From: Prasinococcaceae sp. CCMP 1430
Taxonomy: Eukaryota > Prasinodermophyta > Palmophyllophyceae > Prasinococcales > Prasinococcaceae
Assembly (NCBI GenBank): GCA_013416795.1
Contig: RQSC01000018.1
Coordinates: forward strand, 161,857-225,856
DNA length: 64,000 nucleotides
Reading direction: 5' to 3'
Shown here: piece by piece, positions 7,747 to 58,160 of the stretch
How positions within the stretch are numbered: the first letter of the stretch is position 1
Layout of the letters: every line of letters begins with the position of its first letter
Translations under genes and position numbers: made by a program
The notes under the pieces: model-generated
Database searches by the model: none
Seen by the model: only the letters and a program-made list of their open reading frames with translations
Told to the model about the DNA's origin: nothing

Positions 7747-9688
7747 TTATTGTTCAGAAGAGGCAGCGGCCGCCGGGTCCTCGCACGCCCGCGCGCGCAT
7801 GGTAACGGCGGGCGGCGGTGAGCGGTGCGGCCGAGGCGGCAAGGTGGACGGCCAGGAGTTTAAGCGCTGGCGGCGGCGTTTGCGCTCTCCGCGGCGGCAG
7901 AGGATGGCCTCTGAATTAAGGACCGTCCCCTCCTCTGTGGCCGTCTCCACCTTCCCGTGCCACGCCGAGCGGAGCTCGAGAGGGTGGTTTTGCGACGCGT
8001 CCGCTTCTAGCGCACGCGCGAAGGGGGAGGCGAGCGGCGACTCAGCTGTGCCGAAAGATGGCCGGCCAAGCACAACGTCGTCAACTGTCGACGGCCGCTT
8101 GGCGTGTGTCGGCTGTGCACTGGCGGCGAGGGCGTACACGTCGGTCGAAACGCCCGCGAGCGCTGATGCGACGAAGTCCAACTTGGCCTCAAGGCTCGAG
8201 AGTGAACCGCGACGCTTGTTGTTTGGTATGGCCGCCGCCGCCTTCTCGGCAGACACTGGCTTGCTGCCGCCCCCCTCGCCTGGCGCGCCGAGTGGCGGCG
8301 TGAGGATCTCTGCATGCGAAGTGGCGGAGATCCGCGCAGCGGTGACCGCGTTGGCGGTGCCCTGCCACGAGCAGTAACAACAATTCCCCGAGAAAGCACG
8401 AGAGCGTTGAGGAACGGCGTTGGTGGGACGCCGGGAGCGTCAGCGAGTGTCGGGGGGGGGGGGGCGGGGGGGCATGGGCGAGTCCAGCAGAGTGCGAGCG
8501 ACGCCCACGCGGCGCAGAAGCGAGGGTGGCCCGCACCTGTACAGATCTCTCCAAAAAGGAACTCGAAATGGACGCGATGAGCATGATATACAAGCTTGCA
8601 CCAACAATCATAGAGCCGATCGTGATCCCCAGCTCGACGCTGGTCGCCGGTGAGTAACACGGAGGTCCGTAGCCGATGCAGAGCATGTGACTTGTGGCTA
8701 TGAAGAGGGCGTATGTGTACTGGTGGATCTTGGAAGCATCCTCCAGGCCCTCGCAGCTCACCCATCCAGTCTCGGGAAAGTCTTGCAAAGCCTGCAGGAA
8801 AAAGAGCACGCACGCGTCCAGGTGTGGAAAGAGAATGATGCCAGAGGCGATCTTGATGGCGTGCAGCACCTGCGTGGCGCGCTCGCTGCCCGTGTACAGG
8901 ATCCAGCGCCGCGCGTAGCGGAAGAGGCGCGGCAAGCGTAAGAGGCGCAGGAGGCGTGGCAGACGGAGAGTCATTCGCGTACGCGTGTCGCCACCCACAT
9001 CAAGAAGCAGCGGCAGGTCGGCGGGCACGCTCGAAACAAGGTCCACCACGAACATCTGTCGCAGGTAGCGCCGCCGTGCTACGCGCAGCCGTCGCTCGGG
9101 AGGGCCGCCGCCGTCCGGTATGAAGCCGGTGTTCATGTTGAGCCAGATGTCCACGAGGAACATAACGTCTATCAGGCAGTCAAGTATCGATAGCGGTCCG
9201 AACGTGTCGTCACCAAAGCCGAGCCGGAAGGGGAGCACCACTGCATTGTATAGCACGCAGCACACTATGAAGAGATCCCAGCGGCAGCGCGGCGCGGACA
9301 CCGGATCGAGCGCAATGCGCTCACCCGGCGGCACGATGGGCTCCAGGGGCGCATCGTGGGCGTCTGCCGCATCCTCGCTCTGTAGTGGCGCCAACACTGA
9401 CTCGTGCGCCGAGGAAGAGACGGACGCCTGGAAGCTGCCTCGATGCCCCATGAGCTTGGCTAGGATGCTGCGCTGGCCGGCATTTTTCTTGGAGGGAGAC
9501 GAGGGGACCACGGAGGGCGCATCGGATGCCGCATCTGGGATGGAGAAGATCTGTGGCGCGGCGAAGGCGCTTGCGGCGCTCCGCGGCGAGCTCGCAAGCG
9601 GTGTGCCAGGACCGCCCAAACTGCCGCGGCGGCGGCAGCCGTGCGTGAGGGCCAGAGGCAGGCTCAACCGCCGGCCGGCGCGCGACAT
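7747..9688 (-). CDS. HCN/CNG-class voltage-gated cation channel lacking a cyclic-nucleotide-binding domain
   Basis: Two exons, 8537-9688 and 7747-8361, join in phase 0 over a 175-nt intron (GTGCGG donor, GTGGCAG acceptor) to give 588 residues. After a disordered serine-rich N-terminus come six spans: S4 is an arginine ladder (LPRLLRLLRLPRLFRY), and the pore reads SHMLCIGYG near residues 335-341, almost identical in style to animal HCN channels, preceded by LQDFPETGWVS. The selectivity filter GYG predicts K+ permeability, possibly mixed with Na+. After S6 (IGSMIVGASLYIMLI) the C-terminal 200 residues are polar and low in complexity; no C-linker or cyclic-nucleotide-binding fold is visible. The start is the first in-frame ATG. 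It likely acts in the plasma or flagellar membrane. Confidence 0.85.
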
Positions 9689-52026: not shown

Positions 52027-53326
52027 TCAGCCCCACCAGCTAGGCATGCCCTGCTCTGCCCGTGAAGCCGCTAGACCTGTGTCGTAGGCGCGCGCCGCCT
52101 GCGTAGCGGCGGCCTCGCTAACGCCGTACCCGTACCCTCCGCTGCGCGGCGCGCGTGGCGCGAGTTGCTTGCGGCGCGGGATGGCGCTCTCTTCAACAAG
52201 CGACGGCACGTAGCCGCCATAGATGGCGCTCTTCGCACCGCGCCCGTGGCCACCGCTCGCGCGCTCGCTCTTGACCACCTGCTCGGGCGAACCGCGGGCC
52301 GCGGCACCGGCCGGCATGGGCACGTCGCCGCCCCCGTAAATGGCGCGCGCGGCGCTGCGCCCGTGGCCACCACTCGCCTGCGCCATTTTCTGTGGTGACG
52401 AGTGAGAGCCACCATTGCTGCTACCGTCGCCGCCGCCGTAGATTGCATCACGCATGCCGCGACCGTCGCCGCCACTGGCGTTGCGCATTTTGGAGCTGTA
52501 CTCCCTCACCGGCAAGCCGCCTGAGTGTGTGGCAGGGGCGGGGGGCGCACTGCCATGCGAGCCAACGTTCGGGTTGGCATTCTCAAAGCTGAGGTTTTCG
52601 AGGTGAGGCGCGTCCGCGTACGGCAACGCGCCAGACGTGGCAGAGCCACCGGGGCCGGACGCAGCTGCTGGCGGCGGCCCGTACGACGCGACCCCTGGCG
52701 TGGGGTAGCCACCACCGACAGGTTTGGCCGCCTGGTTGCTCGCGGGGTCCAGGTGGCCTGTGCGCGCGCGCAGCTCGGCGAGCTCGCGTTCGAGGTCAGC
52801 GATGTCCATGTTGCCGTATGCGTCGGGCATGGCCGCTCCCCCACCGCCCGGCGCCTGGCGCCTGTGCTGCGGCAGCGATGATCTACGAGCCGCCTGCAAT
52901 TGCTCGTGTTCTGCGAGCTGCGCCTGATACTCGGCGTCCTGAGCCGCGTAGTCAGCGTAGCGCCGAGCCGGTGGGCCACCCCCGCCGATGAGCGACTTCA
53001 CGCTATTCCCTGACTCGTATCTGTGGGCGCGCCGAAGTGAAGAGGACGTTGTGACGGATGCGCACGCGCCATGAGTCAGGGCTCGAGGACAGTTTGCGTG
53101 TGCGCGTGTGTGTGGTTTTGTGCGTGATTGAAAGGGAGGGGAGCGTACGTGTTTGTAGGGGGGGAGGGGGGGCTGTGAGCCGGCGCAACTTCCAGCAGCG
53201 TGTCGTCGCGCCAGCTGACGAGTGACCGCACCTCTTGTACAGATCTGACTGTCGAACGCACGGCCGGGAGCCGAGCAGGTTGCCGACATTCTGGCTTGTG
53301 GCCCGCGAATCGTGGCTATGGCTCAT
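52027..53326 (-). CDS. Unknown protein with GGxGR...AIYGG repeats
   Basis: Two exons, 53232-53326 and 52027-53020, join in phase 2 over a 211-nt intron (GTGCGG donor, CCCACAG acceptor), giving 362 residues. After MSHSHDSRATSQNVGNLL comes a short coiled segment (ADYAAQDAEYQAQLAEHEQLQ) and another (DIADLERELAELRART). The C-terminal half carries three copies of a roughly 17-residue unit, SGGDGRGMRDAIYGGGD, SGGHGRSAARAIYGGGD and SGGHGRGAKSAIYGGY, spaced by disordered linkers. Such units suggest a repeated peptide-binding or scaffold motif. I do not recognise the family. The clean in-frame splice supports a real gene. Confidence 0.65.
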
Positions 53327-54310
53327 GACTTCGCACGATCGTCACCGTCGTGCCCCGCCCGCGCCCCGTCGACAACCCGCCTGAACGCCTATGCAGCGTG
53401 CAGCGCCCCTGCTCCGGCCGCGTCGCACGCAAAGCGCAAGCGCCGCCGTTCCCTTCGGGCGCGTGACGCGGGCGTGCACGCCACCCCGGCGCCGCCCGTC
53501 CGCCGCTCCCGCACGCACCCAACAAGCCCGCTCGCACCCTGCACCACCTAGCTCCACGCTCGACGCGCCCGATCCCCGCAATCCCAGCACCACACCACCG
53601 CCACCTGCCCTGCTCGTGGTGTGGCGCGGCCGCGGCGGCGGCAGCGGGCCCCGCGCTTTGACCGGGGCGCCCCGCGCGCCCGCCCGTTCAAGGGCCGCGC
53701 GCGCGCGCGCGCGGCTGCCGCGGGACGAGGCGGTGTTTAGGTATGACAAAAAGGGTCCACACATTCATCCGAAGCTACGGCCGATGTTCTCCTGCCACTG
53801 CGAATGGCGTGCCAAACGCGCGCGAGAACACAACACAACACAAAGTGGGCTTCGGGTTTGTGGGTGCTGCCGCGCGCGCGGGCGCGCAGGCGCGCGCGGG
53901 CCGGAGGCGCTCGGGGAACGGGCGGACGCAAGCGGCGAAAAGCGCGCGCGGCCGCGAAATGAATTCGAAGCGTACGTGTCGCCAGATTCTACGGCATCGA
54001 TGCCGTACCGACATGGGCGGTCCCAAATATTCCCCGGGGCAGCGTCACGCGTCAGATGGTACAGTACAGCTGTACCAATTGGTACTGTACCATCACGATG
54101 GTACACCATCGAATTTGCTGTGCAGTACGGTATATACCCTCTTTCCTGAACCCTTATTAGGTTCGGGGTCTGCGGGCGACCACAGTGCAGGCCGGTGCGC
54201 CGCTGCTGCCGCGCGGCGGCGTCGGCGGCGCAGCAGAGCGCGGGCGCGAGGCGGTGTGGGCGTGGGCGTGTGTGTGTGTGTGGCGGTGCGGGGTGGTGGT
54301 GGTGGCAGCG
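53327..54310. promoter_or_regulatory. Divergent intergenic region with palindromes and a TATA-like site
   Basis: About 980 bp between the repeat protein (-) and the heme lyase (+). A palindrome cluster lies at 54055-54104: a GATGGTAC half-site, then GTACCATC-AC-GATGGTAC (54087-54104), with nested GTAC palindromes between. GGTATATACC at 54129-54138, about 175 bp before the heme-lyase ATG, is a TATA-like candidate. The 53330-53740 part is GC-rich without a gene. Confidence 0.5.
54087..54104. repeat. 18-nt perfect inverted repeat
   Basis: GTACCATC, two bases, GATGGTAC: perfect eight-base arms with a two-base centre. A further GATGGTAC stands at 54055-54062. It belongs to the same motif group as sites near 160, 10010, 23450, 46800, 47100 and 47640. 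Confidence 0.9.
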
Positions 54311-55861
54311 ATGGGTGCGGCGCAGTCTGCGGAGGGAGGCGCGCCCGGGACGGCGCGGGGGGCGCCCGCGGGCGCCGACGCCTGCCCCATGGCTGGCGAC
54401 GGCGTCGAGCCACGCCTCCAGCAGCGCCACGCGCTCCTCGTTGGTGTCGGCGGGCCACCGCCGGCGGGCGGGTCGGCGTGCCCGGTCGTCGGACAGGAGG
54501 TGCGTGCGCGGCGGAAGCGCGGCGGCTTCAGCTTGGCGCGCTCCTGCCGCACCAAAGCGCCTGCGCTCGGCGGCGCCCGCCGGCGCTCGTGGCCGCCCCC
54601 TGCCGGTCTCCTGACGCTGCGCGCGCCGCTGGCGCTGGCGGCCGCCGCCGCGCATTGCAGGGCGGCTCGCAGGGCGAGCCCGTGTACAACGTGTACAGCG
54701 AACGCATCAACCCGCTCAACCGAGTGCCGACAGGCACGAACCGGCCTGGGCTGTCGCCGCAGCAGAAGGTGCCACTGTCGACGGGTCGCGTGCAGAGCAC
54801 CATCCCCAAGGGCGGCACGGACGGGCAGTGGACGTACCCGAGCCCGCAGATGTTCTACAATGCCCTCATGCGCAAGGGCAAGGGCGGCGACGTGCAGGAG
54901 TCCGACGTCGCCGACGTGGTCTCCGTGCACAACGCCATGAACGAGCGCACGTGGCGCCAGGTGCTCGACTTCGAGCGGCTGCACGAGGCCGAGTGCGGCA
55001 CGCCACGCCTCACGCGCTTCGAGGGGCGTCCTTTCGACCTCAGCCCGCTTGCGCGCCTATACACGCTCATGGGCTACACCGCTCCCTTCGACCGCCACGA
55101 TTGGTACGTCGACCGATGCGGCAAGCAGGTGCGCTACGTCATCGACTTCTACTACGACGAGGCGCAGGGGGTGGAGGGCGAGGGCGCGGACGCGGGCGCC
55201 ACCGGGGAGACGCCTACCGGCGCGGCGATGCGCATGATCACCGTCGATGCACGGCCCGCGCTCGACTCACCCGAGGCGGCGTGGGACCGCCTGCGCAAGT
55301 GGATGGCCGGCCCGTCGAGCGTCGCAAGTGTCCCAACGAGCGTCGAGCAGCCGCGCACGGCGGAGGAGCGGGAGGCGGCCCAGGTCCCCGCGCTAGGGCA
55401 GCGTGAGGTGCGTGGCGCGCGTTGCGCGCACGCCCATCGCGCGCTGTGCTCCCGCGTTTGCGCTGACTCACCTTGCCGCCGTTGTCGCCATGTGTTGGGG
55501 CGCGCAGGGCCCCGCTGCGGCGAAGATGCGCCAGCTGCAATCGGACTGCGCGCCGTGCTTCAAGGCGACACAGACGTGCGAGGACGAAATCGCGTGCTAC
55601 GCCGCAGGCGCGGCGCTTGAGCTGTGCATGGCACGCGTGCTGTGTCCGGCGAAGGCCGACAGGCTCGCGATGGCAATGGACAGGAATGAACGTGCGTCGT
55701 CGGCCGCGGCTGAGGTCGATGGCGTCGGCGGCGTGCGTGCCTGGTGGCGACGGCGCGGCGCGGCGGGCGCCGCGCGCGCTGAGGACAGGGCGCGCAGCGC
55801 GGTGCAGACGGAGATCGAGTCCTTCCGCGCAAAGCTGCGTAAAGAGGTCGGCCTGGAGTGA
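54311..55861 (+). CDS. Holocytochrome c synthase (cytochrome c heme lyase) with a cysteine-rich tail
   Basis: Three exons, 54311-54499, 54661-55407 and 55508-55861, all phase 0 (both donors GTGCGT), give 429 residues. The N-terminus has two CP heme-regulatory motifs (ACPMAGD, SACPVVG). The core is diagnostic: QQKVPLSTGRVQSTIPKG, WTYPSPQMFYNALMRKGKG, VVSVHNAMNERTWRQVLDFERLH, LSPLARLYTLMGYTAPFDRHDWYVDRCGKQVRYVIDFYYDE and ARPALDSPEAAWDR; the histidine of HNAMNE is the heme ligand in this family. It attaches heme covalently to apocytochrome c in the mitochondrial intermembrane space. The last exon adds about 115 residues with a C-x9-C...C-x9-C pattern (DCAPCFKATQTC and ACYAAGAALELC), absent from known heme lyases I recall. 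Confidence 0.93.
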
Positions 55862-56347: not shown

Positions 56348-58160
56348 TCAGATGGCCAGCGTCTGCAGCATCGACGACGACAGCTGCTCCATGTAGAGCG
56401 GCGAGTTGCTGTCGGCATCGTCCACCGAGCCAACGTCCGCATCGCCGACGGTGCCTAGCAGGTCGGCGGGGAGCGCGAATTGCAGGGATGAGTCATCCAG
56501 GCCGCCCGCGTCGGCCGCGGTGTCACCTCTCGATCCGGAGCGCATGATGCCGCCCCCAAGCATGAGGTTGCGCGAGGTGCCCGTCGAGCGGCGCGAGTTT
56601 CCGGGCACGAAGGCCGGCGCCGACGACTTGAGGTCCGTGCCAACATCCCCACCATCCTGCTGGTGGTGCGTGTACATCGCCGGAGAGCCGTCGCCTGGCG
56701 ACGCCGGCAGCGACTCGGGAGACGCGCTCCCGTCCAGCACGCTCACCGGCGTCGCGCTGGCCTCGATGTCTTCCTGAGCGGGTAGCTGCGCTAGCGCCGC
56801 GGCATACATGTCCGCCGCTGCCGACACTGCCGAAGCGTCCACCGAGTCGAGCGGCGCCTGGCGCGGCTGCGCGACGAAGCCCTTCGCCGGCGGCGGGCCG
56901 GGCGGCAGGGGGGGGGCGCCACCGCCACCGGTGTTTCCCCAAAGGCGTGCTACAGCAGGCGGTGGGGTCGCCGTGACGTGCGCCGACTGGCCATCCGATC
57001 GCGCCTTGCTCGGAGGCGGCCCGGGAGGTAGCGGTGGCGCCGCCCCGCCGAGCCGCGATGGGGGCGGGCCCTTCGGCAGCGGCGGGCGCTGATACCCGCC
57101 ATCCGCGGCGGCCCCGGCGGGTGGCCGGGTCGGAGGAAGGGGTGGCTGCCAGTACGACGCACCGCCGCCCTCTTGGGCGCGCTCGGCGCCTGGAGGCGGC
57201 GGCCCGGGCGGCGGCGGCGGCTGCGACCTCGCCACCGTCCCACGCCGCGCCGCCAGGTGCGCCGGGGGCGCCCCCGGCGGAAGCGGCGGGGGTATACCGG
57301 GGGGGAGGGGCGGCTGGCCGCCATGCGGGTACCTCCTGTGCGCGCCCGGCGGCGGTTGCGGCGGCAGCGGCGGCTGGCCTACGCGCCCCCTGACGCTCAG
57401 TGAGCGCAGCGCAGTCTCCACATCGCCACCGGCGTTGGCCACCGCCGCGTAGACAACCGTCGCCGCCGTGCCGGCGGCTATGGCCTGATCCACGCGCACC
57501 ATCTGCGCCGCGATGTCGACGGGCGCGGGCGCGCGGCCCACCAGGCACGACGCTAGGTTGCTCTGGTCTTGCGCCACAGGATCCTCCATCAGGAACGCGG
57601 ACGCCCCCTGCAAATCGTCGCCGTAGAGCTGCACCGCCACGGCGGCCTGCCACTCCGCGAAGCCCATCGCAGTCAGCTGCGCCGCGGCGAGCGAGCGGCG
57701 CCACACCACGACCGCGTCTGCGCACATCGCACGCATGCCCTCGCTGCCGTCGGCCGCACTGCCGACCTGCAGCGAGTGCTGCTGCGCAGAACGACCGCCG
57801 CGTCGCCCGCCCCCAGTATTACCGCTACCCCCGCCACTACCTCCCCGCTGCTGGTGCTGCGCGTGGCCGTGGCCGTGCCCGTGCTCGGCCTGCTGCTGCT
57901 GGCGCCTCTTGGCGCGCTGCGCACTGCGGCGCTCATTCTTCGACTGGGACTGCGGCGCGCACAGAAACAAAAAGAGCGAAGCATGGCGTGTGGCGGGGCG
58001 AGCGCGCGAAGAGGTGGCGTCAGCACGCGCAGCCGCTCATGCGCGTCCCCGGCGGCAAGAACGGCGCGGCGGAGGACGCGCCCGAGCACGACGCCACGGT
58101 CGCAGAGCCGTGGAACGAGATGGGGTTGATGGGGAGGGCGGCCGCGCCGCGCCGCGCCAT
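56348..58160 (-). CDS. UBA-like and polyproline protein with PAM2-like motif
   Basis: The main exon 56348-57949 is preceded by a CCGCAG acceptor. A short first exon 58098-58160 (ATG, MARRGAAALPINPISFHGSAT) fits in phase 0 over a 148-nt intron with a GTGGCG donor, giving 554 residues; this 5' model is the least certain part. A Q/H/G-rich basic segment is followed by a UBA-like helical block (LTAMGFAEWQAAVAVQLYGDDLQGASAFLMED) and a second weaker one (VVYAAVANAGGDVETALRSL). Then come about 170 residues of PPLPPGPPP-type proline runs. Near residue 480, LKSSAPAFVPGN resembles the PAM2 peptide that binds the MLLE domain of poly(A)-binding protein. A role in mRNA-protein complexes is therefore plausible but inferred. 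Confidence 0.6.

Follow-up and report, generated by a model that had tools for sequence, protein, structure and literature searches.

The window (the 64 kb stretch of DNA that was analysed) contains, on the + strand, a gene for a System III heme lyase, predicted to consist of three exons that encode 430 amino acids from an ATG at 54311. Heme lyase is an enzyme of the mitochondrial intermembrane space that attaches heme to cytochrome c. The parts of the gene, in order, are:

54311 to 54499, + strand: exon 1, 63 amino acids, starting MGAAQS and ending GAG/GTGCGTG at the donor
54500 to 54660, + strand: intron 1, 161 nt, phase 0, GTGCGTGC...TTGCAG
54661 to 55407, + strand: exon 2, 249 amino acids, the cytochrome c heme lyase domain followed by a linker of about 35 residues
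54694 to 55302, + strand: the Cyto_heme_lyase domain (PF01265) within exon 2, profile positions 80-299 of 299, E 2.6e-55, 188.5 bits
55408 to 55507, + strand: intron 2, 100 nt, phase 0, GTGCGTGG...GCGCAG
55508 to 55861, + strand: exon 3, a C-terminal tail of 117 amino acids, then a stop codon

The domain score exceeds the curated PF01265 cut-off of 23.8 bits, and the heme-contact motifs are intact: the cap motif WTYPSPQMFYNA (W-x-Y-P-S-x-Q-M-F-x-N-A), the His-helix VHNAMNERTW, and PFDRHDW. In human HCCS, the regions of these motifs supply the heme contacts and the axial ligand His154 (PMC11727520). The host protein is, as predicted from domain and motifs, a bona fide heme lyase or holocytochrome c synthase, and the identification made in the earlier note is borne out by the E value of the PF01265 match. 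The start of exon 1, MGAAQS, is of the myristoylation type (MGxxxS), and the exon also carries two Cys-Pro motifs, ACPMAG and ACPVVG. Human HCCS is itself N-myristoylated, and its localisation is unchanged when myristoylation is blocked (PMC10752898).

Just upstream of the start codon, at window positions 54055-54125, lies an AT-richer patch of short palindromic and inverted repeats on GGTAC / GTACC, possibly a promoter element. The heme lyase gene is flanked by long open frames on the minus strand, at 56348-58036 (562 amino acids, very proline-rich) and at 52027-53322 (431 amino acids); a Pfam search of both returned no matches.

Splicing of exon 3 onto the heme lyase is suggested by the phase-0 fit, the repeated donor and the in-frame coding bias. 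The donor GAG/GTGCGTG is common to both heme lyase introns, both of which are in phase 0, and a similar donor, CAG/GTGCGTG, is found in the cytochrome c1 intron of the same genome. Intron 2 has a CTGAC about 45 nt upstream of its acceptor; if it is retained, the heme lyase frame stays open until a stop at 55618. With a codon bias model trained on 1047 codons from conserved genes, exon 3 scores +0.25 bits per codon in the frame of the tail and -0.14 to -0.93 in the other five frames. The cysteine part of the tail reaches +0.40, compared with +0.45 for the enzyme domain, and the read-through frame of intron 2 is non-coding-like at -0.58. Given that about 11% of stop-free frames of exon 3 length in the window score as well, the coding bias alone is no proof that exon 3 codes.

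The six cysteines of the tail stand at residues 14, 17, 24, 30, 40 and 46, with gaps of 2, 6, 5, 9 and 5 residues, and the remainder of the tail is Ala/Arg-rich. Three features are placed on it, the second and third of them predicted:

55547 to 55645, + strand: the cysteine core CAPCFKATQTCEDEIACYAAGAALELCMARVLC, CX9C-X5-CX9C-X5-C
55550 to 55642, + strand: predicted helix-turn-helix, tail residues 15-23 and 27-45 with the turn at 24-26
55736 to 55846, + strand: predicted long C-terminal helix, tail residues 77-113, basic/alanine-rich

The earlier note had described a CX9C, five residues, a second CX9C and one more cysteine, and the tail matches this description exactly (C14-X9-C24, X5, C30-X9-C40, C46). 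It had overlooked C17, which makes the first motif CAPC-X6-C. When all six frames of the 64 kb window are searched for CX9C-X(3-30)-CX9C without a stop, the only match is the one at 55547. The concentration of six cysteines within 33 of 117 residues has p ~0.006; given six cysteines spanning 33 residues, a twin CX9C is expected by chance in about 3% of cases and the five-cysteine 10-6-10-6 register in about 0.09%. In a table of human twin CX9C substrates (PMC12114033), the loops between the motifs measure X8 to X28, and X5 spacers appear in the COA5/Pet191 entry alone, in agreement with the remark in the earlier note that a five-residue loop is short.

AlphaFold2 was run in single-sequence mode on 117 and on 60 residues of the tail. 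The two folds agree on both helices, with a pLDDT of 90-94 over tail residues 11-40. Structure prediction, which had been proposed as a check, gives a candidate helix-turn-helix over the twin CX9C, for which no significant structural match was found. Foldseek and VIA searches with both tail models returned generic helical bundles only, with no CHCH entry and nothing significant, and such searches carry little information for small helical hairpins. Comparison with PDB sequences gave no worthwhile match for the tail and none for the enzyme, and an NCBIfam search gave a chance match only. Neither the tail nor its core matches the CHCH profile PF06747 or the Pet191_N profile PF10203, even at E 10, and the CHCH proteins of the same genome do match PF06747. 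Membership of the CHCH family by sequence, which the earlier note had implied, is thus not upheld.

The tail resembles the twin CX9C (CHCH) proteins MIC19, NDUFB7 and COX19 in its two CX9C motifs, placed by single-sequence prediction on a putative antiparallel pair of helices, and in its intermembrane-space setting, and MIC19 and NDUFB7 share with the window enzyme an N-terminus of the myristoyl type. It differs from them in its X5 loop, where theirs fall within X8-X28, in the missing CHCH profile match, in two extra cysteines and in being part of a large membrane-associated enzyme. By profile and by loop length, then, the tail was rejected as a CHCH domain; it may still work like one.

The wider genome contains some of the surroundings in which such a hairpin would operate. 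Erv1 is encoded. A Mia40-like first exon (G000:C1:284232-284330) reads ..ALGCDCIADLRAGACGAPLVEAFGCYL, with CDC where CPC is expected, which may be an artefact of sequencing or assembly, and the remainder of that gene falls in an assembly gap. Cytochrome c, with CAQCH, and cytochrome c1, with CAACH, are present as ordinary two-thioether substrates, as are CHCH proteins that by eye resemble COX19, CHCHD2 and COX6B. One further CHCH protein exon, at G000:C65:41700-41816 (CKEGMRKYVACLKEHGNNGADRECRALAKGYLQC), scores over the CHCH cut-off and at about the cut-off for Pet191_N. Light-harvesting genes are present and the best of them is closest to the Euglena Photosystem I antenna (9vfj), which points to an alga of the chlorophyll a/b type. 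At G000:C68:262793-264869, two light-harvesting genes sit in head-to-head orientation with about 1 kb between them, and the closest solved relatives of one of them are units of the Euglena LHCI polyprotein.

A second heme lyase is encoded in the genome (G000:C76:57446-58148, minus strand). It is about 51-53% identical to the window enzyme and ends ..AVKRAGNLLKHH, without the tail. The search for a hidden tail exon beside this paralogue gave only low-complexity, Cys-rich frames on the strand opposite to that gene, and no second copy of the tail was found in the organism's own genome. The window copy resembles the cytochrome c-specific group of heme lyases by what we take to be the motif of that group, which is a lead only. 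Chlorophytes have two heme lyase paralogues, one specific for cytochrome c and one for cytochrome c1, and two paralogues also occur in several other lineages (PMC10879542).

One relative was found outside the genome. When contigs of prokaryote genomes were scanned with a DNA motif for heme lyase, they yielded a eukaryotic HCCS on JAIYDP010000215.1, a contig binned as Verrucomicrobiaceae; its presence there is eukaryotic contamination of a prokaryote reference genome. This HCCS of a pond eukaryote (~8074-8785, minus strand, exons joined by eye) ends ..YRNVNPSKLDELSK and also has no tail; its gene has very short introns of about 35-50 nt. It shares KGGTD and RKGKGGDV with the window enzyme and is 56.6% identical to it, a higher value than that between the two paralogues, suggesting that the paralogue duplication predates the divergence from the pond organism. 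The tail would then reflect a gain in the window lineage or a loss in the pond lineage. An alignment scan of the same prokaryote contigs gave no relative, and the DNA pattern scan gave only this one real eukaryotic HCCS. Viral contigs held no tailed relative when searched with the enzyme, a two-paralogue alignment, the DNA motif pattern or the tail itself. Nor did the literature searched describe any heme lyase that carries a CX9C tail. The earlier note had proposed to look for the tail in other algal heme lyases; with the tail absent from the paralogue and from the pond relative, it is not general to such enzymes, and from these two comparisons it looks lineage-specific. Like System III HCCS of the chlorophyte HCS1 group (PF01265), the window enzyme has the full domain, the heme-contact motifs, an N-terminal MG, Cys-Pro motifs and two paralogues. 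Whereas the related copies checked end soon after the C-terminal helix, it adds a linker of about 35 residues and the 117-residue cysteine exon.

The reading that best accommodates these results, to which we assign roughly an even chance (about 0.5), is that an HCS1-like System III holocytochrome c synthase has acquired, through a lineage-added exon, a C-terminal CX9C hairpin that acts as a folding trap of the Mia40/Erv1 type. The extra exon, once spliced on, would provide a CX9C-type helical hairpin at the C-terminus of an enzyme with intact catalytic motifs. After arrival in the intermembrane space, C14-C40 and C24-C30 would be oxidised by Erv1, alone or together with Mia40; this pairing is the one suggested by the geometry of the predicted hairpin, and C17 and C46 would be left over as spare thiols. 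The normal pairing of twin CX9C proteins is the same one, with C14 facing C40 and C24 facing C30. Locked by disulfides, the hairpin would trap the enzyme in the intermembrane space and stabilise it, by analogy with MIC19 and NDUFB7. Both of these proteins combine a CX9C domain with an N-terminal myristoyl glycine, and both elements are required for correct localisation (PMC10752898). The cysteine-studded helical hairpin, then, probably helps to import the enzyme and to hold it in the mitochondrion. Of the earlier proposal that the tail is folded by Mia40/Erv1, the twin CX9C spacing, the predicted hairpin, the presence of Erv1 and the partial Mia40-like exon speak in favour, and the lack of a CHCH match speaks against. 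A parallel for a helper of HCCS is offered by FAM136A, a partner of human HCCS that affects HCCS levels (PMC12051016). A helper domain built into the enzyme would play a role comparable to that of FAM136A, which is a separate protein, and a sequence relation to the tail is not claimed.

Several points count against the folding trap. With X5, the spacer falls short of those in ordinary twin CX9C proteins, Pfam searches recover neither CHCH nor Pet191 even at E 10, and no tailed relative was found in the scans. In addition, the heme lyases of yeast and human get to the intermembrane space with no domain of this kind, and a second import signal is in principle unnecessary. The localisation of human HCCS is, moreover, independent of myristoylation (PMC10752898), which also argues against an import trap.

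Alternatively, the tail may be a neutral or weakly selected lineage-specific extension with partly fortuitous cysteine spacing, or a metal-binding cluster, which we consider unlikely. The collections searched hold no homologue of the tail, the twin pattern has a chance of occurrence of a few per cent once six clustered cysteines are granted, and the Ala/Arg-rich composition elsewhere in the tail would suit such an origin. Set against this are a coding bias in the cysteine part that nearly equals that of the enzyme domain, a confident predicted helical hairpin that is in register with the cysteines, and a cysteine spacing typical of the compartment in which the enzyme itself works.

A little less probable is a COA5/Pet191-like docking module, by which the heme lyase would be tethered to assembly factors of the respiratory chain and the tail would have no part in import. 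The COA5 entry "CX9C-X5-CX9C-X5-CX9C" (PMC12114033) agrees with the tail at five of six cysteines, in the C-X9-C-X5-C-X9/10-C-X5-C register whose low chance probability is given above, and human PET191 physically connects heme a enzymes and copper chaperones in mitochondria (PMC9232578). A clear separate Pet191 gene over the Pfam cut-off was not seen in the genome, where the sole sub-cut-off match, on C65, is a CHCH protein; this speaks for a docking module, but a missing match proves little in an assembly that is incomplete and intron-rich. The position of the sixth COA5 cysteine is Ala in the tail (position 56), C17 is extra, there is no PF10203 match, and the tail is fused to a heme lyase. 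In human PET191, furthermore, the structural cysteines lie in the outer CX9C motifs and C30 and C41 in the linker (PMC9232578; X22 in PMC12114033), whereas the tail is predicted to make a tight turn at 24-26. On the outer structural pairs, the missing sixth cysteine and the lack of a Pet191_N match, Pet191 itself was rejected as the identity of the tail.

The earlier note had also raised control of apocytochrome thiol reduction. In such a redox module, CAPC or the spare thiols C17 and C46 would act on the CXXCH thiols of apocytochrome c ahead of heme attachment, either reducing or protecting them, an arrangement that we regard as improbable. The polypeptide of the synthase does include a CXXC motif (C14-A-P-C17) and two cysteines in excess of the twin CX9C set, and twin CX9C proteins such as COA6 have been proposed as thiol reductases (a proposal cited in PMC9232578). 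The predicted fold, from single-sequence AlphaFold2, is not thioredoxin-like, and the tail-less paralogue and pond relative keep the same catalytic motifs. System III enzymes are not known to need a dedicated thiol reductase. Beyond the two unpaired cysteines and the CAPC motif, nothing was found in favour of the role. Less probable again is a combined scheme in which the CAPC and spare cysteines of the hairpin, together with the Erv1 relay, would determine whether the CXXCH thiols of apocytochrome are oxidised or reduced, such that relay import and cytochrome c maturation are coupled in one polypeptide.

Finally, it is quite doubtful that the tail forms a small gene of its own, immediately downstream of the heme lyase and starting at 55485 or 55526: there are in-frame ATGs upstream of the cysteine motif, and stand-alone twin CX9C proteins are usually small, but such a gene would overlap a heme lyase frame without a stop before 55618, the 100-nt gap is non-coding in the read-through frame, and donor and acceptor fit in phase 0 with the donor repeating that of intron 1.

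In short, the cysteine pattern described in the earlier note is confirmed and the interpretation given there is partly supported; the gene probably encodes a heme lyase to which a hairpin of the disulfide type has been added. The finding touches on how heme lyase is imported into and retained in the intermembrane space, and on whether System III and the Mia40/Erv1 relay evolved together. As a place to look for co-evolution of the two, PMC5731054 names a green alga with System III. If the folding trap is real, a built-in CX9C hairpin would tie the disulfide relay and cytochrome c maturation together in one protein. If it is only a lineage-specific import lock, it would be a modest, neat case of an intermembrane-space trap gained by the addition of an exon.
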